A stretch of 64,000 nt of DNA from Robiginitalea sediminis (GTDB lineage: Bacteria > Bacteroidota > Bacteroidia > Flavobacteriales > Flavobacteriaceae), in contig NZ_NGNR01000003.1 of NCBI RefSeq assembly GCF_002198115.1, forward strand, positions 124,001 through 188,000, written 5' to 3'. Below are positions 18,168 through 31,651 of the stretch, piece after piece (the first letter of the stretch is position 1; every line of letters begins with the position of its first letter). A program made the position numbers and the translations under genes. Below the pieces are notes generated by a model. That model saw only the letters and a list, made by a program, of their open reading frames with translations. It was not told where the DNA came from and did not search any database.

Positions 18168-18947
18168 CTACCGGCTGGCGGAGCCCAGACTGGCATCAAT
18201 ACGTTCCAGGATGGTCAGGATCCCTTTGCGCAGGGGCAGGTAGAAGTTACTTTCCGTACCCTCCGCGGTTATCAGGAATACCACAAGTTTGTTTTCGAAT
18301 TCCTGCGATTTCAGCACGGGTAGGTTCGTATGCTCCCGTTTGGGGATTCCTTCCCCAACATATATGGAAGCAACCCCGGCGTCCTGCAGGATGGACAGGA
18401 TGCTGCCCTCTGGCCCGAGGAATACATCCATGACCTGCTCCCGTATGTTCCGCAGGTTGCTCTCCTGCCGGTTGGCACTTTCCAGGGAGGGTTCCCAGGA
18501 TGTTAGGCGTTGCCTCAGATCGGCGTCGGAGAGGATTTGCAGCCTGCCCGAGTTGATCATTTCCCGCAAAAGGGAATTGTTCGGGTTGTATTGGATTTCA
18601 TAGGAAAGCGCTTCGATAAGCAGCCCTGAAAGTGCTGCCTCCTCATCGCGTGTTTCCACTTCTGGCAGGCGCGAAAGGAGCTCTTTGGTGTTGTTGTATG
18701 TCCTTTTATTTACGGCAATTAGCGTATCGAGTTTGGCCAGGCTTAACTGGAATTCGTGTTTAAGTCCCTCCAGGTAGAAGGCTTCCCTTTTGGCTTCCTG
18801 CCGGTCCTGGTTCCACCCGTCGATCCACAGGGCCGCCAGGATCCCGACGATTATCAGCAGGATTTCCCCCGTGGCGTAAACCAGGTAGGTCCCGAATTTG
18901 CGTTCTTTCAATAAACCGTGGCGAAATTTGCGAAACAGGCTGAGCAT
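18168..18947 (-). CDS. DUF6090-like membrane protein
   Basis: 259 residues from the ATG at 18947 (MLSLFRKFRHGLLKERKF); the longer frame to 19037 would run into the proteorhodopsin terminator. A basic N-terminus is followed by one transmembrane helix (YATGEILLIIVGILAALWIDGWNQ, about residues 24-46) and a long, probably helical soluble part. This N-terminal pattern (YAIGEIxLxxxGILIAxxIxxWN) is what is annotated as DUF6090 in Flavobacteria; function unknown. A second member is at 28499-29248. Confidence 0.75.
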   Translation of the reverse strand: MLSLFRKFRHGLLKERKFGTYLVYATGEILLIIVGILAALWIDGWNQDRQEAKREAFYLEGLKHEFQLSLAKLDTLIAVNKRTYNNTKELLSRLPEVETRDEEAALSGLLIEALSYEIQYNPNNSLLREMINSGRLQILSDADLRQRLTSWEPSLESANRQESNLRNIREQVMDVFLGPEGSILSILQDAGVASIYVGEGIPKREHTNLPVLKSQEFENKLVVFLITAEGTESNFYLPLRKGILTILERIDASLGSASR

Positions 18948-18996
18948 AAGAAGACAGTCATCTGAAGGTGAATTTAAGACAATTCCGCTGCCCGGC

Positions 18997-19030
18997 CCAA
19001 AAAGAAAGCCCCCGGGACTACCGGGGGCTT
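18997..19030 (-). terminator. Terminator of proteorhodopsin transcript
   Basis: On the minus strand, AAGCCCCCGG (19030-19021) pairs perfectly with CCGGGGGCTT (19015-19006), 5-nt loop, followed by TCTTTTT. It begins 24 nt after the proteorhodopsin stop and insulates it from the DUF6090 gene. Confidence 0.88.
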
Positions 19031-19053
19031 CCATCATTCAACCAAACAAACGG

Positions 19054-19794
19054 TCAGGCAGTGACCTCCTTATTGGCATGGGACAGGGTCGCCAGGTTAT
19101 AGATGACCAGTCCGAATCCAATTTTGTTGATGGCATCGCCAACGTTGTAGATAACATCCATATTCAGGCCGCTGAACCACCCTTCATACCAGCCGGGGGT
19201 GCCAGCCATATACCCCAGGGGGTAGATGGCCCAGCCCACCAGTACAAACCAGCAGAGGGTTTTGTGGGCGCTCAGGACCGCCCCTCCGGCAGCTTCTGCC
19301 AGTTTTTTGGCTTCTCCCATCCAGATCATGTACACGATCGCGAAGTAGGCGATTCCGGAAATCAGACCCCATAGCCAGGCCTGATCCCGGTAAACCGCCT
19401 CCCCGAAGTAGCCGGTAACCAGCATGACCACGGAAAGGCCGATGAGTTTCCACATCAGCGATTTCTTCGCGCCTGCCACTTTAAGGATCAGGAAGAATTC
19501 CACGCACATGAGCGGAACAGTCAGGACCCAGTCGACATAGCGGAAGAAGGTGGGGGACTCCATATTGGTTGCCCAGTAATCGCGCATGTACCAGTAATGC
19601 ACAGCTGCGATAAACGTAATTAATCCGGATACCAGAATCGAAGTCCGCCACTTGCGGTCGAACTGGTTCATGGAGAGAAAGAAGAAGGCCGAAGCGGCCA
19701 TCATTGCCATGCACCCTACAAAGAAGGTGAAGCCTACATAATCGTCGGGAGCCATCTTGGCTACCAGCGAAAGGTTAGTAATTAAATGTCCCAT
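19054..19794 (-). CDS. Proteorhodopsin (green-type light-driven proton pump)
   Basis: 246 residues, seven hydrophobic helices. Retinal Schiff-base Lys is K224 in DAINKIGFGL, with counter-ion Asp D220. Helix C reads RYVDWVLTVPLMCVEF: proton acceptor D88, T92 and proton donor E99 form the DTE set of proton-pumping proteorhodopsins, and H66 matches PR His75. The spectral tuning residue (PR position 105) is M96, the flavobacterial green-tuned state. It pumps protons outward across the inner membrane in light. Divergent from blh, which makes its retinal; 95-nt AT-rich intergenic region between them; terminator follows. Confidence 0.97.
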   Translation of the reverse strand: MGHLITNLSLVAKMAPDDYVGFTFFVGCMAMMAASAFFFLSMNQFDRKWRTSILVSGLITFIAAVHYWYMRDYWATNMESPTFFRYVDWVLTVPLMCVEFFLILKVAGAKKSLMWKLIGLSVVMLVTGYFGEAVYRDQAWLWGLISGIAYFAIVYMIWMGEAKKLAEAAGGAVLSAHKTLCWFVLVGWAIYPLGYMAGTPGWYEGWFSGLNMDVIYNVGDAINKIGFGLVIYNLATLSHANKEVTA

Positions 19795-19889
19795 TGTTCA
19801 ATTATTTAAAAATGTTTAAGTAAATTTAAAAATAATTAAACAATAATGTTTAAAAAATTAATAAAAATTTTAAACAAAAATTATTTCTG
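19795..19889. promoter_or_regulatory. Divergent, mirror-symmetric control region of proteorhodopsin and blh
   Basis: Very AT-rich 95 nt between the two start codons. It holds TGTTTAA at 19813-19819 and 19847-19853, and the inverse TTAAACA at 19836-19842 and 19870-19876. Each half is TGTTTAA-N16-TTAAACA, and the halves meet in the perfect palindrome TTAAACAATAATGTTTAA (19836-19853). The array is centred at 19844.5. A fifth, imperfect copy TGTTCAA (19795-19801) abuts the proteorhodopsin start. This looks like a set of binding sites for a dimeric or multimeric regulator; which regulator is unknown. Confidence 0.65.
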
Positions 19890-20777
19890 ATGGGGCCACG
19901 GTTCGATATTCGGAATTTTCTGGTGCCTGCAACCTTCTTTTGCCTATGGTTAACGGGCACTTTTGAAGAACGTGTGGAACAGGTTTTCGCCCTGATCCTG
20001 ATCTTCACCTTTGGCATCCTGCATGGTGCAAATGATATTTTTATCCTGGAACACCTCGGTAAACGCAACAGAGGAATAAGTGGAACGGGGCTCCTCTTTC
20101 TCTATATAGGCTTTGTTGCCGGAGCAGCCCTGCTCTTTTATGTTCTTCCAACCCTGGCCCTCTTCGCATTTATCCTGTTTAGTGCCTACCATTTCGGGGA
20201 ACAGCACTGGGCAGGACGAATGGAAGGGCGTGGCCTGGAAAAGGATCTGTTCCTCGGGGCATACGGGATGGCCATTCTGGCCCTGTTGTTTATGTTCCAT
20301 GCCGATGCGGTGGCTGGTGTGGTCCTGCAAATTTGTGGTTGGAGCCCGGATGCAATACTGTTTCAGGGGCTGTTTGGGGGGTCTTCCCTTCTTTTTCTGG
20401 TCCTCTTTTTCAGGGTGGTCCAACCCAGGGGCCGGTTTTCCGTTTTGCTATACGAACTCTTCCTGCTGGGGGTTTTTGCGCTCGTGTTTAAGGTATCGAG
20501 CCTGCTTTGGGCCTTTGCTATTTACTTTATCCTATGGCATGCCATCCCGTCCCTTATGGACCAGCTGCGCCTGCTTTACGGACGGGCGAACCGCCGCAGC
20601 GGCCGGCTGTACCTGAAATCCTCCGGCTTGTACTGGGGTGCGGCACTTGTTTCCCTGGCGGTGGCCTATGTGTTTTTCCGGGATCCTTCCTATGGATTTC
20701 TCCCCTTATTTTTCTCTTTCCTGGCGGCTATTACCTTTCCGCATGTTCTGGTCATGAGTGGGCTCCTGCGCCGCTAA
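19890..20777 (+). CDS. blh: Brp/Blh-type beta-carotene 15,15'-dioxygenase
   Basis: 295 residues, integral membrane with about eight hydrophobic segments. The family's iron-ligand histidines are present: H45 in FGILHGANDI, H101 and H106 in YHFGEQH, H217 in LWHAIPSLMDQ, and H285 in FPHVLVMSG. It cleaves beta-carotene to two retinals, the chromophore of the divergent proteorhodopsin. No other carotenoid genes are in the window. Its stop overlaps the stop of the convergent TonB receptor gene by 4 nt. Confidence 0.93.
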   Translation: MGPRFDIRNFLVPATFFCLWLTGTFEERVEQVFALILIFTFGILHGANDIFILEHLGKRNRGISGTGLLFLYIGFVAGAALLFYVLPTLALFAFILFSAYHFGEQHWAGRMEGRGLEKDLFLGAYGMAILALLFMFHADAVAGVVLQICGWSPDAILFQGLFGGSSLLFLVLFFRVVQPRGRFSVLLYELFLLGVFALVFKVSSLLWAFAIYFILWHAIPSLMDQLRLLYGRANRRSGRLYLKSSGLYWGAALVSLAVAYVFFRDPSYGFLPLFFSFLAAITFPHVLVMSGLLRR

Positions 20778-23332
20778 AACCGCACCCGGAAGCTCAGGTT
20801 GGGGGTGAGGCCGAGGGAGAGGCTTTCAATGCGCTCAATCTCGTTCTGGGCATTGAGGCGGTAGTAGGTATTCAGGATGTTCCGTCGGTTGGTGAGGTTG
20901 AGTAGGGAAGCACCCGCCGAAGCCTTTACGGTTTCGGATAAGGAAAAGGAATACACCGCAGAGAAGTCTGCCCGCATATAGTCGGGCAGCCGGCTGCTGT
21001 TGGGCGTTTGAAAATTGATGCGGTTGGGGAAGAACGAGGTGTCTATGGCATTGGGCGCCTCCTGTGGCTCGGTAAAGGGCCTGCCGCTTCTGTAATTGAG
21101 CCCTATCCCCAATTTCAGGTTCCCGTAGGTGTAATTGGTACCCAGGCTCACCGTATGCCTCACGTCCAGGTTGTTCGGAAATTCCGATGTGTCCAGGTCG
21201 GGGAAGGTGTAGGTGTTCTGGTTGAGGGTGTAGCTCAGCCAGCTGCTCCAGGCCTCGCTTTTGTAATTGAGCAGGGATTCCAGCCCCATAACGGTATAGC
21301 TCCCAATTTCCCCATCAAACTGGTATTCATTCTGGAAGCCCTGGGTATCTGTAGTAATCCCATCCACTTCTTTGTAAAAGCCCTCCAGCCCAGCCAACCA
21401 GTTTCCGCGGTCGTAATGCAGCCCTATGGAGGCCTGTTTGCTGGTAACCACCGGGAGCGATTCTTCATCGGCCAGGATCCAGCGTCGTTTTTCAATGCCC
21501 AGGAAGTTCTGTTCCAGGTCTATCTTCTGCAGGCTGGTTTGGTTCTTGAATTCCCCCAATACCTCCAGGTTCAGGTGGGGGTTTAGCTTGTAGTGCAGGC
21601 TCAGGCGCGGCTCCAGCAGGAAACGGTCGAAGTCCTCCGGGTTACTCAGGTAATTGGCACGGACCCCTGCCATCCCCATAAGCCTTCCATCCGGGCTGGT
21701 GTAGTGCCATTGGGCAAAGGCGGCATGGGCGTAGACCACATCTTTGATCCGGCTTTCCAAGGGGGGTTGGTTCACTTCGGAGATATTGGTGATTCCGGTC
21801 GCCAGGAACTGGTACCCCCAGCTTCCCGTCAGGGCATCGGAAAACCGGTAATCGGCCCGGGTCTTTAAGGCGGTTTCCTTGACCTGGTTGAGCTGGAAGA
21901 GTTGTTGGCCGCTGGCTTCGGTCAGGTAGTAGGAATCCAGGTCGTATTGGGTGAGGTAGCCGGCAACCTCCGTGCGCAGGCGTGGGTTCCACTGGCTGGT
22001 AAAACGGCCGCCCAGGCTCAGGTTACTCTGGTCCAGGTCCGAGCGGTTCTGGCTGTTGTCCACTGCAAGGGTTTCCCCGTAAAACAGGTTGTTCCGGATG
22101 TATAGGAAATTCATTCGGAGGCTGTGGCGGTCGTCGATATCATAGAGGACTTTCCCGCTGAAATCGTAGAAATAAAAGGATTCATCCTGGCTGGCAATCC
22201 GGTCGGAATTGGCCCCGCCCAGGTTGCTGATCTGGGTATTCTGGAAGGCCCGGTCCGTAAAGAGGTTATAGGTGGGGGTATTCAGGATGTCCGTGACCGA
22301 ACGCCGGGCCGAAACCTGCAGGGCCACCCGGTCGGAAAGGGGGAGGTGCGCATAGGCATCCCCGCTGATCAGGTTAAAGCCCGCTCCCCCGAAATAGGTG
22401 CGCTCCACGCGGTCGAAGGTTTCCATACTGATGATGCCGCTCACCCCGTCTCCGTAAAAGGGGCTCGCCCCGTTTTTGATGATGCGTACGTTTTCTGTCA
22501 GGTATGGGTTAAAGGCCGAGATAAGGCCGAAAAAGTGCCCGGACTGGTACATTTTAATGCCGTCCCACAACAGGAGGTTCTGGTCGTTGGTCCCCCCGCG
22601 GATATTGATCTCAGAAACGGTTTCGTCTATGCTTTTGATGCCAGGCAGGGCCTGGATGGTTTGCAGGACGTCGGGTTCGGTAAGCCCGGGTAGCACGCCA
22701 AAATCCGAAGTGCTCATGCGAATGCTCCCGTCGGTTTCCCGCGCCAGGCCGGTGGTCAGGAATTTGTAGACGACTACCTCGTCGAGTTGCTGGTACACCA
22801 CGGGCAGGGCTACCACCGGGCATGGGTTGCTACTTAAGAGCTCTGCTGCCCGTACAAAGCGCGTGCGGAACCCCAGGTACCGGATGCTTAGGGTGGCTTC
22901 CCGGGGGACCCCTTCCAGGCGGAACGCCCCGTAGGCATCCGTAGTGGTGGCCAGGGAGGTGCCCAGCACCGTTACAGTGGCCCCTGAAAGGGACTCCGAT
23001 TCAAAATTATCTGTAACCCGTCCGCAAAGGACAATCGTAGGGGGTTTGGAGAGGGCGAAGTAGCGGGAATCCAGGCGGCGGATTTCCAGTTGGGTCTGTT
23101 GGCGGATGGCTTCCAGGGAGGCTTCAAGGCCAAGCCCGGGAGGAAGGGTTACGGTAAGTGGCTCCAGATCCTGGTCCAGGAAGGAGAACCGTACCTCATG
23201 GGCTTGTTGCAATTCCCCAAGCACGGCAATCAGGCTGCGCCGGGCATCGGGTGCGTCCTGGGCGAATGCCGGCAGGGCCATAAGGCCCATCCAAAGCAAA
23301 AGGCAAAGGAATTTAAGGGGTTTCCCTGGCAT
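20774..23332 (-). CDS. TonB-dependent receptor with STN signalling domain (FecA-type)
   Basis: 852 residues from MPGKPLKFLCLL (23332), which gives a clean signal peptide ending near FAQ; an upstream Met at 23353 is possible. Order: signal peptide, STN domain (about 25-95), CarboxypepD-reg beta-sandwich (about 100-180, GRVTDNFESESLSGATVTVLGTS), plug domain (QTIQALPGIKS, EINIRGGTNDQNLLLWDGIKMYQ), then a 22-strand barrel ending in RVRF. The STN domain marks a transducing receptor that signals to FecR. The start overlaps the end of fecR by 20 nt, so they are one operon. No SusD partner, so glycan import is not implied; the ligand is unknown. Confidence 0.88.
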   Translation of the reverse strand: MPGKPLKFLCLLLWMGLMALPAFAQDAPDARRSLIAVLGELQQAHEVRFSFLDQDLEPLTVTLPPGLGLEASLEAIRQQTQLEIRRLDSRYFALSKPPTIVLCGRVTDNFESESLSGATVTVLGTSLATTTDAYGAFRLEGVPREATLSIRYLGFRTRFVRAAELLSSNPCPVVALPVVYQQLDEVVVYKFLTTGLARETDGSIRMSTSDFGVLPGLTEPDVLQTIQALPGIKSIDETVSEINIRGGTNDQNLLLWDGIKMYQSGHFFGLISAFNPYLTENVRIIKNGASPFYGDGVSGIISMETFDRVERTYFGGAGFNLISGDAYAHLPLSDRVALQVSARRSVTDILNTPTYNLFTDRAFQNTQISNLGGANSDRIASQDESFYFYDFSGKVLYDIDDRHSLRMNFLYIRNNLFYGETLAVDNSQNRSDLDQSNLSLGGRFTSQWNPRLRTEVAGYLTQYDLDSYYLTEASGQQLFQLNQVKETALKTRADYRFSDALTGSWGYQFLATGITNISEVNQPPLESRIKDVVYAHAAFAQWHYTSPDGRLMGMAGVRANYLSNPEDFDRFLLEPRLSLHYKLNPHLNLEVLGEFKNQTSLQKIDLEQNFLGIEKRRWILADEESLPVVTSKQASIGLHYDRGNWLAGLEGFYKEVDGITTDTQGFQNEYQFDGEIGSYTVMGLESLLNYKSEAWSSWLSYTLNQNTYTFPDLDTSEFPNNLDVRHTVSLGTNYTYGNLKLGIGLNYRSGRPFTEPQEAPNAIDTSFFPNRINFQTPNSSRLPDYMRADFSAVYSFSLSETVKASAGASLLNLTNRRNILNTYYRLNAQNEIERIESLSLGLTPNLSFRVRF

Positions 23333-24230
23333 ATAGAAGTACTTGGTTCCCATTAACTTCGGTAGCTAGTTGCAGTGGGGTACTTATACTTTCTAACGCC
23401 AATTTCATATTTGTGTTGCTGAAGGAGCCTGTAAATCGTTGAGTGAGGTCTACACCTTGTGTGGTGACCTGAACATCGAACTGCCGGCCGAATTCTTCCA
23501 GTACCGCAGACAGGGGCAGGGAGTGGAATTCAGACTCGTTCCGCGTCCAGGCCGGGGCAGAGGTCCCATCTGCCGGCCCTGCTGCCTCCACAATACCGTC
23601 TACCATCCGGAATGCGGCTCCCGCAGGCAATTCTGTGGTGTGGCTTCCGGAGATCACCCGTACGCGGCCTTCGTAGCAACGCACGATAAAGATGCCAGCC
23701 CGCTGCAACACATTAAACTGGGTACCCAGAACGGTTACATCCCCGGCTTCGGTGGCCACGGTGAAGGTCTTCCCTTTGGCTACCCGGAAAAAGGCCTCCC
23801 CTTCCAGGTTTACCCGCCTTTCGGTTTCCCATCCTTTCGCACTGTAGGAAAGCAGGGATCCGGCATTCAGCGTAATTTCAGAGGCATCCGGGAGGACAAC
23901 TTCAGACTGCTGGGCAATGCCGGTGCGGAAGGTGGCCGGACGGGTACTGATATAGAAGTAGGCCGCGCCGAATAGCAGGACTACGGCGGCCGCTACACCC
24001 ATCCAACGGGTAATCGGGCGCATGCGGACCACCTTGCCGCCAGCGGCGGGGGTACGCGCCTGCCGGACCCGGTTCAGGGCTGCCTCCACGTCGAAATCGG
24101 GGCCGCTGAGGTTCTCAGAGGCCCGCATGATCCGCTCGTATGTGCGGTATTCAGGGCGCTTCTGGAATTCCTCCAGTTCGGCCGGCGATAGTTCGCCGTT
24201 CATCCATTTTGCCAGTAAATCTGTTTTCAT
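23313..24230 (-). CDS. FecR-family anti-sigma factor
   Basis: 305 residues. Cytoplasmic N-terminal part (1-70), one transmembrane helix (about 74-94, WMGVAAAVVLLFGAAYFYI), periplasmic FecR domain (GIAQQSEVVLPDASEITLNAGSLLSYSAKGWETERRVNLEGEAFFRVAKG) and a C-terminal DUF4974 secretin-like domain (SEFHSLPLSAVLEEFGRQFDVQV...). It relays the receptor signal to an ECF sigma factor. No sigma gene is adjacent; the nearest is at 29263-29760 on the same strand. Its upstream element matches one in front of the acidic lipoprotein gene at 29888. Confidence 0.9.
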   Translation of the reverse strand: MKTDLLAKWMNGELSPAELEEFQKRPEYRTYERIMRASENLSGPDFDVEAALNRVRQARTPAAGGKVVRMRPITRWMGVAAAVVLLFGAAYFYISTRPATFRTGIAQQSEVVLPDASEITLNAGSLLSYSAKGWETERRVNLEGEAFFRVAKGKTFTVATEAGDVTVLGTQFNVLQRAGIFIVRCYEGRVRVISGSHTTELPAGAAFRMVDGIVEAAGPADGTSAPAWTRNESEFHSLPLSAVLEEFGRQFDVQVTTQGVDLTQRFTGSFSNTNMKLALESISTPLQLATEVNGNQVLLYARETP

Positions 24231-24243
24231 GGCGATGCCTTTT

Positions 24244-24281
24244 CGACCTATATAACAATCCTACAGGGCTTTACCCTACCC
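24244..24281 (-). promoter_or_regulatory. Putative ECF-type promoter element upstream of fecR
   Basis: On the minus strand GGGTAGGGT (24281-24273) is followed after 11 nt by GGATTGTTATATAGG (ending at 24247), 16 nt before the fecR ATG. The same element, GGGTAGGGT-N11-GGGTTGTTTCATAGG, precedes the lipoprotein gene at 29888 with identical spacing: 9/9 and 12/15 matches. I infer a -35/-10 pair for a shared alternative sigma factor. Confidence 0.6.
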
Positions 24282-24365
24282 GATATCGGAAAAAAATTAC
24301 GGCCTTTTGGCTAAAGATATTAAATAGGTGTGGAATAACCCTTTGTAAAACACCGCCAGGGGGCC

Positions 24366-24845
24366 CTATGCCTCCGGGGTCAGGCCCATTTCATGGAGGA
24401 CTCCTGTGAGCTCTGTGCGCATGTGCCTTTCCAGGTGGAGGTAAAAGAGGTAATATAGGGGCATGCCCAGGAAGAAGATAACCAGCGGGCTCTCGCTACC
24501 CCTGAACCTGCCCACGGCATGGTAAAAATCGGAGTGGTTGAAGAAGGAGAGGAGCAGTAAACCCAAAAAGCCCAGGAAGCCCACTAAGGTCATGGACGCC
24601 GAGAACCCGTTGGGTTCGGAGAGGAAGCTCGCCAGGAGCATGGCGAGGAAGCCCAGGTAGACCCAAAACGCCCACCGGGTGGTCCGGCGGAACCCCTGCA
24701 GGCTATCTACAGCCCGCTTAAGCTGGGATTTGTTAGGCCACAGGTGCATACCCCCGGCCGGATCCCCCGACTCGTCCATGCGGTCGATGATCTTCAGCAG
24801 CTGGGTGGTTTCCAGCGGTTTTTCTAATGTTTCCGGCGTTCTCAT
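24366..24845 (-). CDS. Small integral membrane protein of unknown function
   Basis: 159 residues from the ATG at 24845 (MRTPETLEKPLETTQLLK); the frame is open to 24989 but the extension covers a palindrome-rich non-coding-looking stretch. Three hydrophobic segments: WAFWVYLGFLAMLLASFL, ASMTLVGFLGFLGLLLLSFF and PLVIFFLGMPLYYLFYLHLE. The soluble N-terminus (about 60 residues) is charged. I do not recognise the family. It lies between fecR and the MBL gene on the same strand, 135 nt before fecR. Confidence 0.65.
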   Translation of the reverse strand: MRTPETLEKPLETTQLLKIIDRMDESGDPAGGMHLWPNKSQLKRAVDSLQGFRRTTRWAFWVYLGFLAMLLASFLSEPNGFSASMTLVGFLGFLGLLLLSFFNHSDFYHAVGRFRGSESPLVIFFLGMPLYYLFYLHLERHMRTELTGVLHEMGLTPEA

Positions 24846-25136
24846 GGTTTTTCTGACCCGCAGCACGCTACGCGTAACGCGCACTTTGGGAGCCCTAAAG
24901 TAGTCAATTTTATCCCCTTCCCGGAGCAGGAGTGCTGTTGGTCGAGTGCTTTTCGGCCAATGGTACGGATTAATCGGGGAATGGTTCAAAAGTACCCGGA
25001 ACCGACCGGGGAGTCGGTGATTCTGAGGGGGTTAAACCGGGAATGGGAAAGTGGGAGGATTAATGGTGATTTTTTGATGGGATTGATGGGAGGGTGCAGG
25101 GGCAGGGGTTATTTTGGACTTTGGGTGGGGGTGGGG
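24846..25136. other. 291-nt intergenic region with palindrome and G-rich tracts
   Basis: No convincing gene. It contains an imperfect 20-bp palindrome (24863-24882, core TACGCGTA 24869-24876) just upstream of the membrane-protein start, and plus-strand G-tracts at 25079-25081, 25088-25090, 25092-25094, 25099-25102 and 25105-25108, then 25123-25125, 25127-25131 and 25133-25136, which could form G-quadruplexes. Confidence 0.6.
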
Positions 25137-26702
25137 TTATCGTTTCTTTATGGTATTGGCACGTACGCGGTGCAGGCTGTCTACGGTATAGCTGTAGGCT
25201 TCGTTCAATCCTGCTTTTCCGGAATGGGTGAAGGCCAGCAACCGGGTCCCATCGGTCCGCAGATGGATGATTCCAAAATTCGTACGTTCAAAGCCGTGAA
25301 ACATACCCGCGGGGTCTTCTTTTCTGGGCTTTCCGGTGAACATCTGCTTCAACTCCTCCTTGGTATAGTTGTCCTTTGGGGCATTCTTGAAAAAGTCCGC
25401 CAAAGCGTCTCTCGTAAAGCATTCCTTCCGGTAGGTAAAAAAGGCCGCCAGTTCAGTACTGAACAAGATCCCCATATCGTTGCGGCTGGAGTTTCCTAAG
25501 GCAGACATCAGGGTTGCCCGCGGGTGGATGTATTCGTGAAAGGCGTCCTGGTCTCCAGAGGATACAATCGATATCACCGGCGCCGCTGTCTTCAGAGCCT
25601 TAACGGCAAAATCGTGGGAACCGTGGTGCGGAGCCTTTAAAATCTCGCACTTCAGCTTAGAAGGATCCCCAACCCGCTCCAGCATGCGATCCAGTGCCTC
25701 CTTGTTCAAATCGCCGGTAAAGAGCATACGGATATTTCCGAACTGTAACCGAAAAGCAAGCGAATGCCCGTTTATGGTGTGCGAAGCCGATTCACTACCA
25801 TGGGCTCCTTCTTCCTCAAGATGTAACATGGGGGTATCGGCATGGGCGTGTAAAAATGGAAGGCCTTCATATTCCTTTCCCCTGAAGGTAACCTGGTCGG
25901 TAAAGGGGCCGAGAAGGTCTACATGGATGTCTTCCTCCGCCAGGAAGTCGAAAAAATCGGTGGTATCCATCCCATGTGCGATACGTGCGATCCGCATGGG
26001 TTCCTGTGCACGGGCTTCCCAATGATCCAGGGAGGCGTGCCATTTCTCAAAGCTGGAATTGGTTTGGTCGGGACTGGCTTCCCGGGTATCGTCGAACAGG
26101 TCTATGATATACCGGGTCCCATCCTGTATTTTGGTAGTTCCCAGACGTTTGCTGTCCGGTATGGTCTTTCCGTTTTTCCTCTGGGGAGACTTCACCAGTC
26201 CGTTATGGTATATGCGCTTGGGTTGTATGGCAATGCGCTTTCGTTTCGTGCGGTGTGTTTCGGCATTCACCAATTCGTTGAGCCCCTCAAAATGGTCGGC
26301 ATCCCCATGGGTAATTATAATAGCATCCACCTCCATGGGAGAATCCGGGGTGGATTCCTTGTACTGGTATCTTGCGGCAGCATGGCGTGCGAAGAGTTTG
26401 TTATCTCCCCCATCCACAAAAACGATTTTACCCTCTGGTGTTTCCACGATAAGACCGTCTCCCTGTTGCACATCTACCATGGAGATTTTAAGGCACCCTT
26501 TCTGGCTCAGGCTCAAAGTTCCTTTAACATAGCGGATCCCGCTGTCATAGCTGTCCAGGCAGCGCAACTTGGTCCAACCATCCGAGGATTCCAGGATTTC
26601 AACCTTGTCGCCGAAAACGAGGCTCAGACGTTTATCAGATCCGGATTGGGGACTGGAGTAGGTGGTAACGAAGTCTTCTTTTATATAGCCTGTTCTTCCC
26701 AT
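25137..26702 (-). CDS. ComEC-like metallo-beta-lactamase-fold hydrolase with N-terminal SH3-like domain
   Basis: 521 residues, no signal peptide. Residues 1-60 look like a bacterial SH3 domain (FGDKVEILESSDGWTKLRC). From residue 70 follows an MBL fold of the ComEC/Rec2 type: MVDVQQGDGLIVETPEGKIVFVDGG, metal motif THGDADHFEG (H132, D134, D136, H137), TGDLN and KAPHHGSHDF. Standalone soluble ComEC-like MBL proteins act on nucleic acids or phosphoesters in the cases known, but the substrate here is unknown. It has a 120-nt upstream gap containing a hairpin (26732-26747). The gene sits between fhs and the unknown membrane gene and looks accessory. Confidence 0.78.
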   Translation of the reverse strand: MGRTGYIKEDFVTTYSSPQSGSDKRLSLVFGDKVEILESSDGWTKLRCLDSYDSGIRYVKGTLSLSQKGCLKISMVDVQQGDGLIVETPEGKIVFVDGGDNKLFARHAAARYQYKESTPDSPMEVDAIIITHGDADHFEGLNELVNAETHRTKRKRIAIQPKRIYHNGLVKSPQRKNGKTIPDSKRLGTTKIQDGTRYIIDLFDDTREASPDQTNSSFEKWHASLDHWEARAQEPMRIARIAHGMDTTDFFDFLAEEDIHVDLLGPFTDQVTFRGKEYEGLPFLHAHADTPMLHLEEEGAHGSESASHTINGHSLAFRLQFGNIRMLFTGDLNKEALDRMLERVGDPSKLKCEILKAPHHGSHDFAVKALKTAAPVISIVSSGDQDAFHEYIHPRATLMSALGNSSRNDMGILFSTELAAFFTYRKECFTRDALADFFKNAPKDNYTKEELKQMFTGKPRKEDPAGMFHGFERTNFGIIHLRTDGTRLLAFTHSGKAGLNEAYSYTVDSLHRVRANTIKKR

Positions 26703-26822
26703 ATGGTGCGTCTTTAGGTAAGTGGATCTGCGCAGGGTTATCCCTGCACAACAACAATGGGAGAACTCCTACAAGATATAACCTTTGGCGGCCCCAGGCA
26801 AGCCCTGAAGATGATGAAAGGG

Positions 26823-28493
26823 TTAAAACAACCCGCTGATCTGCCCCTCCCCGTCAATATCGATATGTTCAGAGGCTGGCCTGCCCGGTAACCCGGGCAT
26901 CCTGAGGATGTTCCCTGCAATGGGTATCACAAAACCGGCCCCGGCAGCTATTTCAAATTCCCGGATGTGGATGTCGAAATTCTCGGGCCGCCCCAGCATT
27001 TTTTCGTCGTCGCTCAGGCTTTTCTGCGTTTTGGCCATACAGATCGGCAAATTGGAGAAGCCCAGGGCTTCAAAGCGTTTAAGCTGACTGCTGGCCTTAT
27101 TGGTGAGCAGCACATGTTTGGCCCCATAAATGGTCCTGCATATTTTTTCCATTTTCTCCCGGATGGGATCATCCAGGCCGTAAGTAGGGTGGAAGCGGCC
27201 CTGGCACTGCGATGCAGCCTTTACCACCGCCTCGGCCAGCGCAAGGCAGCCTTCGCCCCCTTTGGCCCACCCCTCGCTGAGGGCCACCGGGATCCCCATC
27301 TTCTTGCAATGGTCCATCAACACCTTATTTTCCTCCTCCGAGTCGCTGGCGAAGCTGTTGAGGGATACCACTATGGGCAACCCAAAACTCTTAAGGCTGG
27401 TAATATGGCGTTCCAGGTTGGGCAACCCGGCTTTAAGGGCAGCAGTATCAGGCTCTTTCAGCTGGTCCAATGCTTTGCCCCCATGATATTTCAAGGCCCG
27501 GATGGTGGCTACCAAAACGATAGCTTTGGGAGATAACCCAGCCTTGCGGCATTTGATATTCAGGAACTTCTCCGCTCCGAGGTCGGCCCCGAACCCGGCT
27601 TCGGTAACCACATAATCGGCCAGGCTCATTCCCATCTTGGTGGCTATGACCGAATTGGTGCCCTGGGCAATATTGGCAAAAGGCCCCCCATGGATCAGGG
27701 CCGGGTTACCTTCCAGGGTCTGCACCAGATTGGGTTTGATGGCGTCTTTGAGCAGGACGGCCATAGCGCCTTCCGCCTTGAGGTCCCGTGCAAAGACGGG
27801 CTTTCCTTCCCAGGTATCCCCAATATAGATATTGCCGAGTTTCCCTTTGAGGTCTTCAAAGTCCTCGCTCAGGCAAAGAATAGCCATTATTTCGGAGGCA
27901 GCGGTAATATTGAACCCTGTTTCCCTTGGGATACCCCCTGCCTTGCCGCCAAGCCCGGATACGATGTTTCTGAGGCCGCGGTCGTTCATGTCCATACACC
28001 GCTTCCAAAGGACGGTCCTGGGGTCTATCCCCAGGTTACCGGTTTTACTGTGCAGGTTGTTGTCGATCAGGGCCGCCAGTAGGTTGTTGGCTTTTTCAAT
28101 GGCGTTGAAGTCCCCGGTAAAGTGGAGGTTGATGTCCGCCATGGGGATTACCTGGCTCCATCCGCCTCCGGCAGCTCCCCCTTTGATCCCGAAGACAGGC
28201 CCCAGGCTGGGCTCCCGGATTACCGTAATAGCCTTTTTACCCAGACGGTTCAGTCCATCGCCCAACCCAATGGATGTGGTGGTTTTACCTTCCCCGGCCG
28301 GGGTAGGGGTTATGGCGGTGACCAAGATCAGGTTGGCATTCCCCATGCGGCCTTTGTCTATTAAACTCAGGGGTAATTTAGCTTTGTCCGGGCCGTAGTA
28401 GTGCAGGTGGCTTTCCGCAATATCCAGGCCGGATGCGATTTCTTTGATGTGTTTTGGGCTAACGCTTTGGGAAATTTCCAGGTCTGATTTCAT
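26823..28493 (-). CDS. fhs: Formate--tetrahydrofolate ligase
   Basis: 556 residues, family length. ATP-dependent synthesis of 10-formyl-THF from formate. The P-loop-like TPTPAGEGKTTTSIGLGDGL (about 60-79), IREPSLGPVFGIKGGAAGGG, and HFTGDFNAIEKANNLLAALIDN are signature regions. It starts 5 nt after the upstream DUF6090 gene, which itself follows the ECF sigma gene by 14 nt, so the three form one tight operon. folD, the next enzyme of the C1 pathway, lies at 35239. Confidence 0.96.
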   Translation of the reverse strand: MKSDLEISQSVSPKHIKEIASGLDIAESHLHYYGPDKAKLPLSLIDKGRMGNANLILVTAITPTPAGEGKTTTSIGLGDGLNRLGKKAITVIREPSLGPVFGIKGGAAGGGWSQVIPMADINLHFTGDFNAIEKANNLLAALIDNNLHSKTGNLGIDPRTVLWKRCMDMNDRGLRNIVSGLGGKAGGIPRETGFNITAASEIMAILCLSEDFEDLKGKLGNIYIGDTWEGKPVFARDLKAEGAMAVLLKDAIKPNLVQTLEGNPALIHGGPFANIAQGTNSVIATKMGMSLADYVVTEAGFGADLGAEKFLNIKCRKAGLSPKAIVLVATIRALKYHGGKALDQLKEPDTAALKAGLPNLERHITSLKSFGLPIVVSLNSFASDSEEENKVLMDHCKKMGIPVALSEGWAKGGEGCLALAEAVVKAASQCQGRFHPTYGLDDPIREKMEKICRTIYGAKHVLLTNKASSQLKRFEALGFSNLPICMAKTQKSLSDDEKMLGRPENFDIHIREFEIAAGAGFVIPIAGNILRMPGLPGRPASEHIDIDGEGQISGLF

Positions 28494-28498
28494 AGTGG

Positions 28499-29248
28499 CT
28501 AGGTTTTGCCTTTCAGCACTTCGAGCGCTTTGCGAACGAGGGAATCGAGGACTTTGGTGTCTGTTATTAGGCGGGTATTAAAGGCGCGTCGGTTATTCCA
28601 GGCCAGCGCAATGCGGGACAGGGAATTGCCGAAGGTTTTGTCGGTCGCCATTTGTTCGAATTGGTAGGTTGGAGGCTGCTGTAGTGCAATATCCGGTTGT
28701 ATGCGGAAATATCTGTCCATCTGCGGTCCTGTTGCTATGATGGACTCCCCAAAAATGCGGTATACTTCTGCTACGGCATCCAGCAAGGTGGAATAATAGG
28801 CGAGTTGGGTCCTCAGCTGTTCATCCTGAAGAAGGTGGAGCCGTCCGGAGCCTTTCAGTTCGTCGTAGGCATGGAGGCGCAGGGTCATGGGGTTGTATTT
28901 ATAATAGGAATCCAGCGCATAGTCCAGAGAGGGCTTTTGCCCGGGCGTCAGGACTCCGGCATCCAGGGCTTCTATGGAAGTGAGTAACGAACTATAAATA
29001 CTGTCGGAGAGGATTTGGTTGTCCTCCAGCAAGGTGTGAACCAGGTTCAGATCTTCCAGGATGCGTTCGTGATAGCGAATGGAGGCCTGCAACTCTTTGC
29101 GGGCATCGTTCCAGTCGTAGATCAGCAGGGCAATGAGGATTCCGGCAATGACCAGGATAAGTTCTCCCAGGGCATATGGAAGAAACTTTCGAACCGATAC
29201 CATAGATGTCCTTTCTTTTCTCAGAAATCTAAAAATTACGGACCTCAT
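28499..29248 (-). CDS. DUF6090-like membrane protein
   Basis: 249 residues. Basic N-terminus, one transmembrane helix (YALGELILVIAGILIALLIYDWND, about residues 25-48), then a mostly helical soluble region. The start at 29248 (MRSVIFRFLRKERTSM) aligns with the usual short basic leader of this family; an internal Met at 29203 is the alternative. Same family as the protein at 18168-18947; function unknown. Tightly spaced between the ECF sigma gene (14 nt) and fhs (5 nt). Confidence 0.78.
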   Translation of the reverse strand: MRSVIFRFLRKERTSMVSVRKFLPYALGELILVIAGILIALLIYDWNDARKELQASIRYHERILEDLNLVHTLLEDNQILSDSIYSSLLTSIEALDAGVLTPGQKPSLDYALDSYYKYNPMTLRLHAYDELKGSGRLHLLQDEQLRTQLAYYSTLLDAVAEVYRIFGESIIATGPQMDRYFRIQPDIALQQPPTYQFEQMATDKTFGNSLSRIALAWNNRRAFNTRLITDTKVLDSLVRKALEVLKGKT

Positions 29249-29262
29249 TTGCTCCTGCGGCT

Positions 29263-29760
29263 TTAAATCCCATCGATGATTTCCCGAAGCGCTTTCAGGG
29301 CCAGGCCCATCCGCTTTTCGATGGCCTTTACACTTACCCCTTCCATCTCGGCGATTTCATGGTACTTCTTGCCATCGATGCGGTTCAGTAAAAAGGTTGT
29401 GCGCTGGTTTTCAGGCAGGCTGTCCAGGGCTGCCTCCAATTTGGCCTGGAATTGCGCTTCCTCCATCAGGTATTCCGGGTCCTGCCGGGTAATGTTTCCT
29501 TCTGCAGGACGGTGTTTCAGGCGTACTTTTTCGGCCTTGATTACATTCAGGTAAAGGTTATTGGCTACGGTGTATACAAAGGCTTTCGCTTTTTCCGGGG
29601 CCACCTTGGCACAGTTCTCCCAAAGTTTAACAAAGGCTTCCTGAACGGCGTCCTGGGCCTTTTCTTCATTCCCGAATTTATAATAGATGTAGTTGAAAAC
29701 CGTTTTAGAATGGGTGCGGAACAGTTCGCTATACACCTGATCGTCGCAAACGTTATCCAT
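29263..29760 (-). CDS. ECF-type RNA polymerase sigma factor
   Basis: 165 residues from the ATG at 29760 (MDNVCDDQVYSELF); the upstream frame to 29913 lacks family homology and crosses the divergent promoter region. Sigma region 2: FRTHSKTVFNYIYYKFGNEEKAQDAVQEAFVKLWENC and AFVYTVANNLYLNVIK; region 4: ALDSLPENQRTTFLLNRIDGKKYHEIAEMEGVSVKAIEKRMGLALKALRE. Length and sequence fit the FecI-like group of Bacteroidota that work with FecR. It is divergent from an acidic lipoprotein gene and leads an operon with DUF6090 and fhs. Confidence 0.92.
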   Translation of the reverse strand: MDNVCDDQVYSELFRTHSKTVFNYIYYKFGNEEKAQDAVQEAFVKLWENCAKVAPEKAKAFVYTVANNLYLNVIKAEKVRLKHRPAEGNITRQDPEYLMEEAQFQAKLEAALDSLPENQRTTFLLNRIDGKKYHEIAEMEGVSVKAIEKRMGLALKALREIIDGI

Positions 29761-29794
29761 GCGGAAGAAGGATTCTCGGGTTGGCGGGTTTTCC

Positions 29795-29802
29795 CAAAGA
29801 TA
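29795..29802 (-). promoter_or_regulatory. -7 box upstream of the ECF sigma gene
   Basis: TATCTTTG on the minus strand (29802-29795), a perfect TAnnTTTG, 34 nt before the sigma start at 29760. It suggests that the sigma gene itself is read by the housekeeping sigma factor. No TTG at the -33 distance. Confidence 0.45.
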
Positions 29803-29823
29803 TTTTAAAAAAATGTAAAAATG

Positions 29824-29860
29824 GGGTAGGGTTATCCCAATGTGGGTTGTTTCATAGGCG
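29824..29860 (+). promoter_or_regulatory. Putative ECF-type promoter element upstream of lipoprotein gene
   Basis: GGGTAGGGT (29824-29832), 11 nt, then GGGTTGTTTCATAGG (29844-29858), ending 29 nt before the ATG at 29888. It matches the element in front of fecR in sequence and spacing and points toward this gene. Confidence 0.6.
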
Positions 29861-29887
29861 TACATCAACAAAAATTTCCAAATCGTT

Positions 29888-31651
29888 ATGAAAAAGTTTC
29901 TGAATCTTGCCACCTACACACTGTTGCTCTTCGGGGCGCTCACCTTTACCTCCTGCCAGGAGGAATTCGAAGAAGTGAACACCTCCAGCACCGAAGGAGC
30001 CTCCTTTAAAGCTGATTCCGAGACGGCTTTGCTGATCGAAAAGACCTCTTCCCTGGACGGTTCTTTCGACAACATTGTGGATGGAAGCAGCTGTTTTGCC
30101 CTGAATTTCCCGTACACGGTAAACGTAAACGGTATAGACATCACCATCGACTCGCGTCAGGACCTGCACCTGATCGAGGAGATCTTCGACGAGTTCGACG
30201 AGGACATCGACATCCTTGAAATCCTTTTCCCCATTACCATTACCCTTGCCGACCATTCCGAGATTGTGATTGAGAACAAGCAGGCCCTGGCCGAACTGGC
30301 CCGGGAATGTATCGAAGGCGGGGACGACGACGATATCGAGTGTATCGATTTTGTGTACCCCATTACCTTTTACACCTTCGATGTAAACAACACCCAAACC
30401 GGGACGGTTACCGTGGAGAGCGACATGCAAATGCGCCGCTTTTTCCACGAACTGGAGGACGGCGATGTAGTGAGTATCGATTTCCCGGTTACCCTTATCA
30501 AGTTCGACGGGACCGAGATTCAGGTCAACAGCAATGCCGAACTGGCCGCTGCCCTGCGCATGGCCAAGGACGCTTGTGACGAAGACGACGATGATGACTA
30601 CAACGACGACGATTTCAGCGTGGAGCGCCTGGCCAATTACCTGACCGAATGCCCCTGGACCGTGGTTACCGTAGAGCGGGATGCCAACGACCAGACCCCC
30701 CAGTATGAGGCCTACCGCATGTTCTTCTCCGAAGACGGAAGCGTAGAGGTGAAAGACCGGGAAGGGAATACCCTTATGGGCGAATGGGCCCTGCGTATGT
30801 CCGACCGCGGCGTGATGCTGACCCTGGCCTTTGAAACCCTTGTGGACTTCAACCTGGAGTGGAAGGTTTACGAGATAGGAGAAGGTAAGATCAAGCTTTA
30901 CGAAGAAGGCGGTAACCGCATCATCATGCACACCAACTGTGGCGAACCCGGAGGCATCTTGCCCGGTGCCCTGGTGGAAATCCTCAGGGAGTGCAGCTGG
31001 GTGATCCAGAAGGTAAAAAACCAGGGTATGGAAATCGACCGCCTCATAGGATACGAGTTTGAATTCCAGGGCGAAGGAGTTGTAACCCTCAGCAACGGTG
31101 TGAACACCAGCCAGGGTACCTGGGAGGTGGCCACTGGTGCCAATGGGACCCTTGTACTGGCCATTACCATGGGAGACGAACCTGGTGTGAGCTTTGAATG
31201 GCCCCTGCGCGAACTGCTAGACAGGCGCCTGAAGTTTGAGGTAGCCGAAATCGACTACGAACTGATCCTGCAACGGGTATGTCCCTCCAATGCCACCGAT
31301 GGCGATGTGGCCGAGATCCGCAACATTATGATGGGGGGAGACTGGGTAGTAGCCAGCTATGTGGAAGGCGATATGGATATGACGGCCAACTTTGCCGGAT
31401 ACGATTTCAGCTTCGCCATGGAGCACCTGTTAACGGTTAGCACCAATATGGACCCCCTGAAAGATGGCCTGTGGCGTGTCATCCGCAACCACGACGGGAA
31501 GTTAAAAGTCTTCCTGAACCTGGGAGACGACGACGATGTCTTTGCAGACCTTACCGAAGACTGGGATTTCGTTTCCATTACCCCCAACCGCCTCGAAGTG
31601 AAGGACGTTAGCGGGGATGGGACCATCACCGTCCTGGTATTCGAGAAATAA
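29888..31651 (+). CDS. Large acidic lipoprotein with repeated beta-motifs
   Basis: 587 residues. Lipoprotein signal with lipobox TFTSC (Cys23). Residues about 65-210 hold four related repeats of the type (L/I/V)xFP(Y/I/V)T(x)n(D/N)G...: NFPYTVNVNGIDITI, LFPITITLADHSEIVI, VYPITFYTFDVNN and DFPVTLIKFDGTEIQV, separated by Asp-rich linkers (GGDDDDIEC, CDEDDDDDYNDDDF). From about residue 240 come three lipocalin-like repeats of roughly 110-120 residues (each with a Trp start, GxW and a closing Cys). Function unknown; Asp clusters could bind cations. Divergent from the ECF sigma gene and preceded by the element shared with fecR, so probably a target of that system. Confidence 0.75.
   Translation: MKKFLNLATYTLLLFGALTFTSCQEEFEEVNTSSTEGASFKADSETALLIEKTSSLDGSFDNIVDGSSCFALNFPYTVNVNGIDITIDSRQDLHLIEEIFDEFDEDIDILEILFPITITLADHSEIVIENKQALAELARECIEGGDDDDIECIDFVYPITFYTFDVNNTQTGTVTVESDMQMRRFFHELEDGDVVSIDFPVTLIKFDGTEIQVNSNAELAAALRMAKDACDEDDDDDYNDDDFSVERLANYLTECPWTVVTVERDANDQTPQYEAYRMFFSEDGSVEVKDREGNTLMGEWALRMSDRGVMLTLAFETLVDFNLEWKVYEIGEGKIKLYEEGGNRIIMHTNCGEPGGILPGALVEILRECSWVIQKVKNQGMEIDRLIGYEFEFQGEGVVTLSNGVNTSQGTWEVATGANGTLVLAITMGDEPGVSFEWPLRELLDRRLKFEVAEIDYELILQRVCPSNATDGDVAEIRNIMMGGDWVVASYVEGDMDMTANFAGYDFSFAMEHLLTVSTNMDPLKDGLWRVIRNHDGKLKVFLNLGDDDDVFADLTEDWDFVSITPNRLEVKDVSGDGTITVLVFEK

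Follow-up and report, generated by a model that had tools for sequence, protein, structure and literature searches.

A candidate sigma factor regulon of fecR, a TonB-dependent receptor, a surface lipoprotein and a putative small RNA in Robiginitalea sediminis and its relatives

We analyzed a stretch of 64,000 nucleotides (nt) of the Robiginitalea sediminis genome (contig NZ_NGNR01000003.1, positions 124,001 to 188,000; hereafter the window), in which a two-part promoter-like element occurs once upstream of fecR, which overlaps a TonB-dependent receptor gene, and once upstream of a gene for an acidic lipoprotein that is divergent from an extracytoplasmic function (ECF) sigma factor gene. The two sites are very probably -35/-10 promoters of the sigma factor encoded at 29263-29760, with a predicted regulon comprising fecR and the receptor gene, the lipoprotein gene and a small RNA encoded elsewhere in the genome, the sigma gene itself presumably being transcribed by the housekeeping polymerase. 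The arrangement of the sites, their conservation and their co-occurrence with the sigma gene are read directly from the genomes, and it is from these that we infer transcription, signalling and a function of the RNA.

Conservation of the paired element

An earlier sequence-only reading of the window had described the pair, and its account of the letters proved accurate. The copies lie at 24281-24247 on the minus strand and at 29824-29858 on the plus strand, share an identical 9-mer and a spacer of 11 nt, and carry 15-mers with the same letter at 12 of their 15 positions. Two matches to the pattern occur in the window versus none in 100 dinucleotide shuffles, and across the whole genome (3.30 Mb) the only exact matches are these same two copies, with one further match at three mismatches and none for a backward-read control. 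The same reading had made a terminal ATAGG part of the motif, which was not borne out. Specifically, 19 related sites align without gaps and contain 12 invariant columns, GTAGGGT and TTGTT placed 14 nt apart, and the tail and the first two G vary among them, which rules out ATAGG as a recognition sequence. Because of this variable tail the original pattern, searched with three mismatches allowed, found a match in just 9 of 40 relatives and none in the remainder. ECF promoters typically have two boxes at a set distance from each other, and here two conserved boxes stand at a fixed spacing upstream of the proposed target genes.

A sequence profile built from the 19 aligned sites gave three sites in the R. 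sediminis genome with an expectation value (E) below 1e-4, namely those before the lipoprotein gene and fecR and a third at C8:45783, and the next-best sites had E 0.40 and 0.53. Within the genus, the element is found in oriented regions upstream of the lipoprotein gene in all eight orthologues (0-5 mismatches to the original 35-mer) and upstream of fecR in all seven loci (0-6 mismatches). A scan of named genomes, in which the nearest relatives of the sigma gene come from Robiginitalea, then kept 80 loci that carry relatives of the sigma factor (74-87% identity), for which a single procedure recorded the best core match within 300 nt upstream of each of the three genes. The exact core is present upstream of the divergent lipoprotein gene in 78 of 79 loci and upstream of fecR in 69 of 75, and the seven non-exact cores at these two genes differ by one mismatch each, reading GTGTT. 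None of the 80 sigma genes is preceded by a core match with fewer than two mismatches, the best matches having 2-6. Autoregulation of the sigma gene through this element was consequently rejected (on 113 nt of upstream sequence at L232).

Both strands of the named loci (2.91 Mb) contain 149 exact cores, 147 of which precede fecR or the lipoprotein gene; the remaining two are found before a second copy of the lipoprotein gene (L201) and at a contig end beside the sigma gene (L232). Two copies in one genome could in principle be the functionless leftover of a duplication or a chance match, an explanation to which we assign a negligible probability, as the core is kept at both places over the 80 loci while the 14-nt spacer varies, and the expectation from shuffling the window is zero. 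A chance origin is rejected by the 0 of 100 shuffles, the two exact genome matches and the 147 of 149 cores taken together.

Probable assignment of the element to the neighboring sigma factor

FecI-type sigma factors are numerous in Bacteroidota, and the R. sediminis genome holds 11 matches to this sigma factor at E 0.001 or better, itself counted. With so many candidates, and with an identification made from sequence, the element could be bound by a different regulator or read by a different ECF sigma factor of this genome, a reading that we consider improbable in view of the two-box layout and for three further reasons. The first is the distribution of the sites. In profile scans of ten Robiginitalea genomes, all eight with an orthologue of the sigma factor have strong sites, whereas the two that lack it (G001 and G006; best sigma matches E 2e-41 and 9e-43, 43-44% identical) have no site better than E 2.66 even though each holds eight sigma matches. 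The best profile E ranges from 2e-8 to 3e-4 in 12 scanned carriers of the sigma factor, versus 0.003 to 0.51 in four genomes without an orthologue.

The second is that the promoter variant tracks the locus and its own sigma factor. In 11 loci holding this sigma factor or paralogues of it (44-100% identical), the fecR and lipoprotein promoters have a common locus-specific variant, for example GGTAGGAGT...CTGTT or TCAGGAGT...TTGTT. Paired promoters within these loci differ by 33 mismatches in total versus 65.8 (standard deviation 6.5) when partners are shuffled, a value that 0 of 100,000 shuffles reached; the 11 loci are related rows that were hand-chosen for both promoters being recognizable, with one-promoter loci (e.g. 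G001 C271, G014 C11, G016 C6 and G017 C46) and further orthologous loci left out. The sigma tree places the two TCAGGAGT loci on a separate branch (98/94) and resolves the remainder weakly. A paralogous fecR-sigma-lipoprotein locus is also found in R. sediminis itself, outside the window (G000:C8:369048-372739); its sigma factor is 47% identical, and its own variant TCAGGA...GGTTGTT stands before both fecR and the lipoprotein gene.

The third is that the sigma gene and its proposed targets remain neighbors. In most relatives the lipoprotein, sigma, fecR and receptor genes lie side by side. The lipoprotein gene adjoins the sigma gene in 79 of 80 named loci, the exception (L232) being cut at a contig end, and is divergent from it with a median of 125 nt between the starts. 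The gap between sigma gene and fecR is below 400 nt in 68 of 75 loci, and larger gaps are found at seven loci, five of them from Robiginitalea (0.8-7.9 kb) and the others being L176 (402 nt) and L242 (7.7 kb); at L184, which comes from a record named Robiginitalea, the gap measures 184 nt. In the window the sigma gene and fecR are non-adjacent, 5 kb apart, which looks secondary because the short gap prevails in 68 of the 75 loci. Most likely fecR already possessed a promoter when it became separated from the sigma gene, which would account for the separation being tolerated.

In regards to the sigma gene itself, a TAnnTTTG box is found within 110 nt upstream of it in 76 of 80 loci versus 4.4 expected from shuffles, while the same box precedes fecR in 3 of 75 loci versus 6.2 expected. 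TAnnTTTG is given as the housekeeping box in a Flavobacterium psychrophilum study (PMC9723704). The proposal of the sequence-only reading that the sigma factor encoded at 29263 drives both fecR-receptor and the lipoprotein gene as one system is thus supported by five lines of genomic evidence that are phylogenetically non-independent: the core before both genes, the conserved neighborhood, the common locus variant, the lack of sites in Robiginitalea genomes without the sigma factor, and the housekeeping box of the sigma gene.

A putative small RNA as candidate third target

The third good site in the genome, at C8:45783, is followed by an RNA-like segment at C8:45820-46014, outside the window and hence missed by the sequence-only reading. 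In the segment a hairpin is followed by a conserved core, which in most copies reads TTCATGTGTTTAGGTTGGTTTT, then by a second hairpin and by one that resembles a terminator and carries a T-run; the segment probably encodes a small RNA of ~190 nt with a 22-nt core. Promoter and RNA segment occur together in seven of the eight Robiginitalea genomes that carry the sigma factor, the eighth (G008) being 74% complete. In an alignment of seven sequences, 16 cells show changes in both partners of a pair versus 7.0 in shuffled alignments (0 of 500 as high), for a structure taken from this very alignment; further pair types are about as many as in shuffles (22 versus 19.7; 89 of 500). An Rfam search with nine loci listed only matches below the gathering score.

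The core, with up to two mismatches, is present in 38 of 249 genomes of the family, and its backward reading in none. It occurs in 35 of 44 genomes with an orthologue of the sigma factor (E below 1e-70) versus 3 of 205 others (Fisher p 9e-31, uncorrected for relatedness). The three cores in genomes without the sigma factor (L246, L247 and L289) have two mismatches and no promoter within 240-260 nt. Among 30 fetched cores a promoter precedes 28 (24 exact, 4 with GTGTT), L246 and L247 being the two without. With a strict core pattern, each of the 36 distinct copies over all loci has a terminator-like hairpin and a promoter of this sigma type (exact in 30, one mismatch in 6), as judged by sequence and folding energy, features expected of an ECF-sigma-dependent small RNA. 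This pattern omits L246, L247 and L289 as well as L255 and L285, two loci with exact promoters. In G104 and G123, two of the nine sigma carriers in which no core was recognized, a promoter match leads into what looks by eye like an RNA segment. Inspection by eye gave no conserved peptide within the small RNA, as several copies lack the ATG of the 5' element and the reading frames differ.

Many copies of the small RNA start directly after the promoter with CAAATTGCTATGAAAAAG, which matches the start region of the lipoprotein messenger RNA (mRNA; CCAAATCGTTATGAAAAAG in the window) at 16 of 18 positions; copies from Robiginitalea show a weaker likeness, for example CAAAGTTGCTAAGAAAGAG in R. sediminis. 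The lipoprotein start region is highly conserved; across the 80 named loci the strict CCAAATCGTTATGAAAAAG pattern turns up 47 times, always at the lipoprotein start, and not once in backward controls, the column frequencies resting on the 64 rows that contain G[TC]TATG. The distance from promoter to this element differs between the small RNA and the lipoprotein mRNA, so the element is presumably not part of the promoter. It is possible that the 5' end of the small RNA acts as a decoy for a partner shared with the lipoprotein mRNA. A search for antisense-seed targets in 16 genomes gave 57 non-self matches versus 42 for the control. Duplex energies against the lipoprotein and fecR start regions in eight genomes had z from -2.3 to +1.5 with no consistent site, and pairing of the core with the lipoprotein start region was not evident in these calculations. 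Our tentative suggestion, which we hold to be less probable than the promoter assignment by a wide measure, is of a noncoding arm in which the sigma factor of a FecI/FecR/TonB-receptor locus drives a new family of small RNAs, seen in over 30 flavobacterial genera, with a 5' end that mimics the lipoprotein translation start and as a decoy ties lipoprotein output to the signal. As a separate observation, a AACAACTAACCAACCTAAAAAC-like element that is partly complementary to the small-RNA core is found at related places, near position 1500, in four genomes (L315, L316, L317 and L320); no start codon was found to overlap it.

Locus genes, proposed mechanism and relation to known systems

The features of the window are collected in Table 1. 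The sigma protein scores 116.1 bits against TIGR02985, under the cut-off of 126.4, and the membrane helix of FecR was judged by eye. The N-terminal 120 amino acids of the receptor give a FecR_C match below cut-off in 8 of 10 proteins, the one from the window not among them.

Table 1. Features of the window and the evidence for each
Feature	Position	Strand	Evidence
Promoter-like element before fecR	24247..24281	-	core GTAGGGT-N14-TTGTT at 24279-24254; profile E 2.5e-6 in own genome
Promoter-like element before lipoprotein gene	29824..29858	+	core at 29826-29851; profile E 8.6e-8 in own genome
fecR, sigma regulator by family	23313..24230	-	Pfam FecR 62.4 bits and FecR_C 28.0 bits, above cut-offs
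TonB-dependent receptor gene	20774..23353	-	Pfam Plug and CarboxypepD_reg domains; 41-nt overlap with fecR
ECF sigma factor gene	29263..29760	-	start codon at 29760; Pfam Sigma70_r2 and Sigma70_r4_2 above cut-off
Housekeeping-type TAnnTTTG box (TATCTTTG) before sigma gene	29795..29802	-	such a box in 76/80 named loci
Acidic lipoprotein gene, 587 amino acids	29888..31651	+	orthologues in named loci; structure model
Conserved lipoprotein mRNA start region (CCAAATCGTTATGAAAAAG)	29878..29896	+	resembled by the small-RNA 5' end

A structure model of the lipoprotein consists of lipocalin-like barrels, and a sequence comparison with the PDB gave no convincing relative. We see an even chance that the lipoprotein shares the promoter merely as an output with no role in signalling, for instance as a surface protein that binds a ligand. 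The barrels would fit such an output, and FecI-type systems signal with sigma factor, FecR and receptor alone (PMC9249621), yet the lipoprotein gene stands beside the sigma gene in nearly every named locus, closer than an ordinary output needs. In G004, G005, G007 and G009 a small frame resembling the last barrel of the lipoprotein lies 3' of its orthologue; in the window no barrel-like small frame was detected directly after the lipoprotein gene.

Further profile or pattern matches precede an acidic lipoprotein gene in G004, G005 and G104 (and in G009 by DNA similarity) as well as small lipoprotein genes. A conserved 55-amino-acid membrane peptide (MDV..II.ES.IG) directly follows a promoter match in L135 and L290 (and L014); listed by genome, matches precede a 55-amino-acid membrane peptide in G007 and G104, and G005 has a frame like it. 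The L135 copy has no Pfam match. Elsewhere in the window, 19054-20777 holds two genes that, from sequence features, look like those for a proteorhodopsin and a Blh-type carotene-cleaving enzyme. Short membrane proteins are encoded at 18168-19037 (Pfam DUF6090) and at 28499-29248 (no Pfam match at E 0.001), the latter like the former by eye.

Several points weigh against the assignment of the regulon. It rests wholly on sequence, and the counts are inflated by the relatedness of the loci, at least 6 of the 80 coming from genomes that contributed sites to the profile. Of the 855 first-look candidates in the R. sediminis genome the profile scan scored 150 and may have overlooked weaker sites, and in G047, a control without the sigma factor, the profile reaches E 0.003. 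The TAnnTTTG box also precedes the lipoprotein gene in 15 of 79 loci versus 7.6 expected, and 9 of the 44 sigma carriers have no recognizable small-RNA core. Finally, the 120 N-terminal residues of the receptor, where a signalling (STN) domain would be expected, gave no convincing match to PDB sequences.

In the mechanism that we propose, the sigma gene would be transcribed by the housekeeping polymerase, and substrate on the TonB receptor may, by analogy with FecI/FecR/FecA, signal to FecR and so switch the sigma factor on. The active sigma factor would transcribe fecR and the receptor gene, and a feedback loop would result because its own regulator lies inside the regulon. It would also transcribe the surface lipoprotein gene, whose product may from its fold be a ligand-binding partner, and the distant small RNA, which would probably adjust envelope mRNAs post-transcriptionally. 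The comparisons support a variant of the FecI/FecR/FecA system in which fecR-receptor, lipoprotein and small RNA appear to be under one promoter class with the sigma gene outside. RybB and MicA of Escherichia coli are Sigma-E dependent small RNAs, with which the putative RNA can be compared. As in the E. coli system reviewed in PMC9249621, an ECF sigma factor, a FecR-family regulator and a TonB-dependent receptor are encoded together and the promoter of the sigma gene is of a type other than the sigma factor's own; according to that review a single promoter, the one before fecA, is under FecI control, and fecIR does not regulate itself. In the present system, by contrast, fecR is inside the predicted regulon, and the lipoprotein gene and small RNA also carry the promoter. 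FoxI and FoxJ of Fusobacterium, which are Sigma-E dependent (PMC11005410), are likewise ECF-sigma-driven small RNAs with their own terminators. These and RybB/MicA belong to envelope-stress responses and repress porins, whereas the present RNA has another sequence and a sigma factor from a FecR/TonB-receptor locus. Motif SM6 of F. psychrophilum, described together with the RNAs Rfp11 and Rfp18 (PMC9723704), is also a flavobacterial ECF promoter class, with Rfp11 listed under an SM6 promoter, but has a CGT -10 box and is linked to type IX secretion genes. The non-subscription papers searched yielded no regulon of this kind under ECF sigma, FecR and flavobacterial small RNAs and no instance of TGTGTTTAGGTTGG, and among the matches listed for GGGTAGGGT the papers seem unrelated, judged by title.

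What this provides is a 12-base core with an assigned sigma factor, same-genus controls that lack the sigma factor and locus variants beside paralogues, which make the promoter code testable, together with a putative small RNA that is bounded, conserved and linked to the locus of a surface receptor in marine bacteria. One switch read by a single sigma factor appears to serve a receptor and its regulator, a lipoprotein and an undescribed small RNA, and to have been kept in many related genera.

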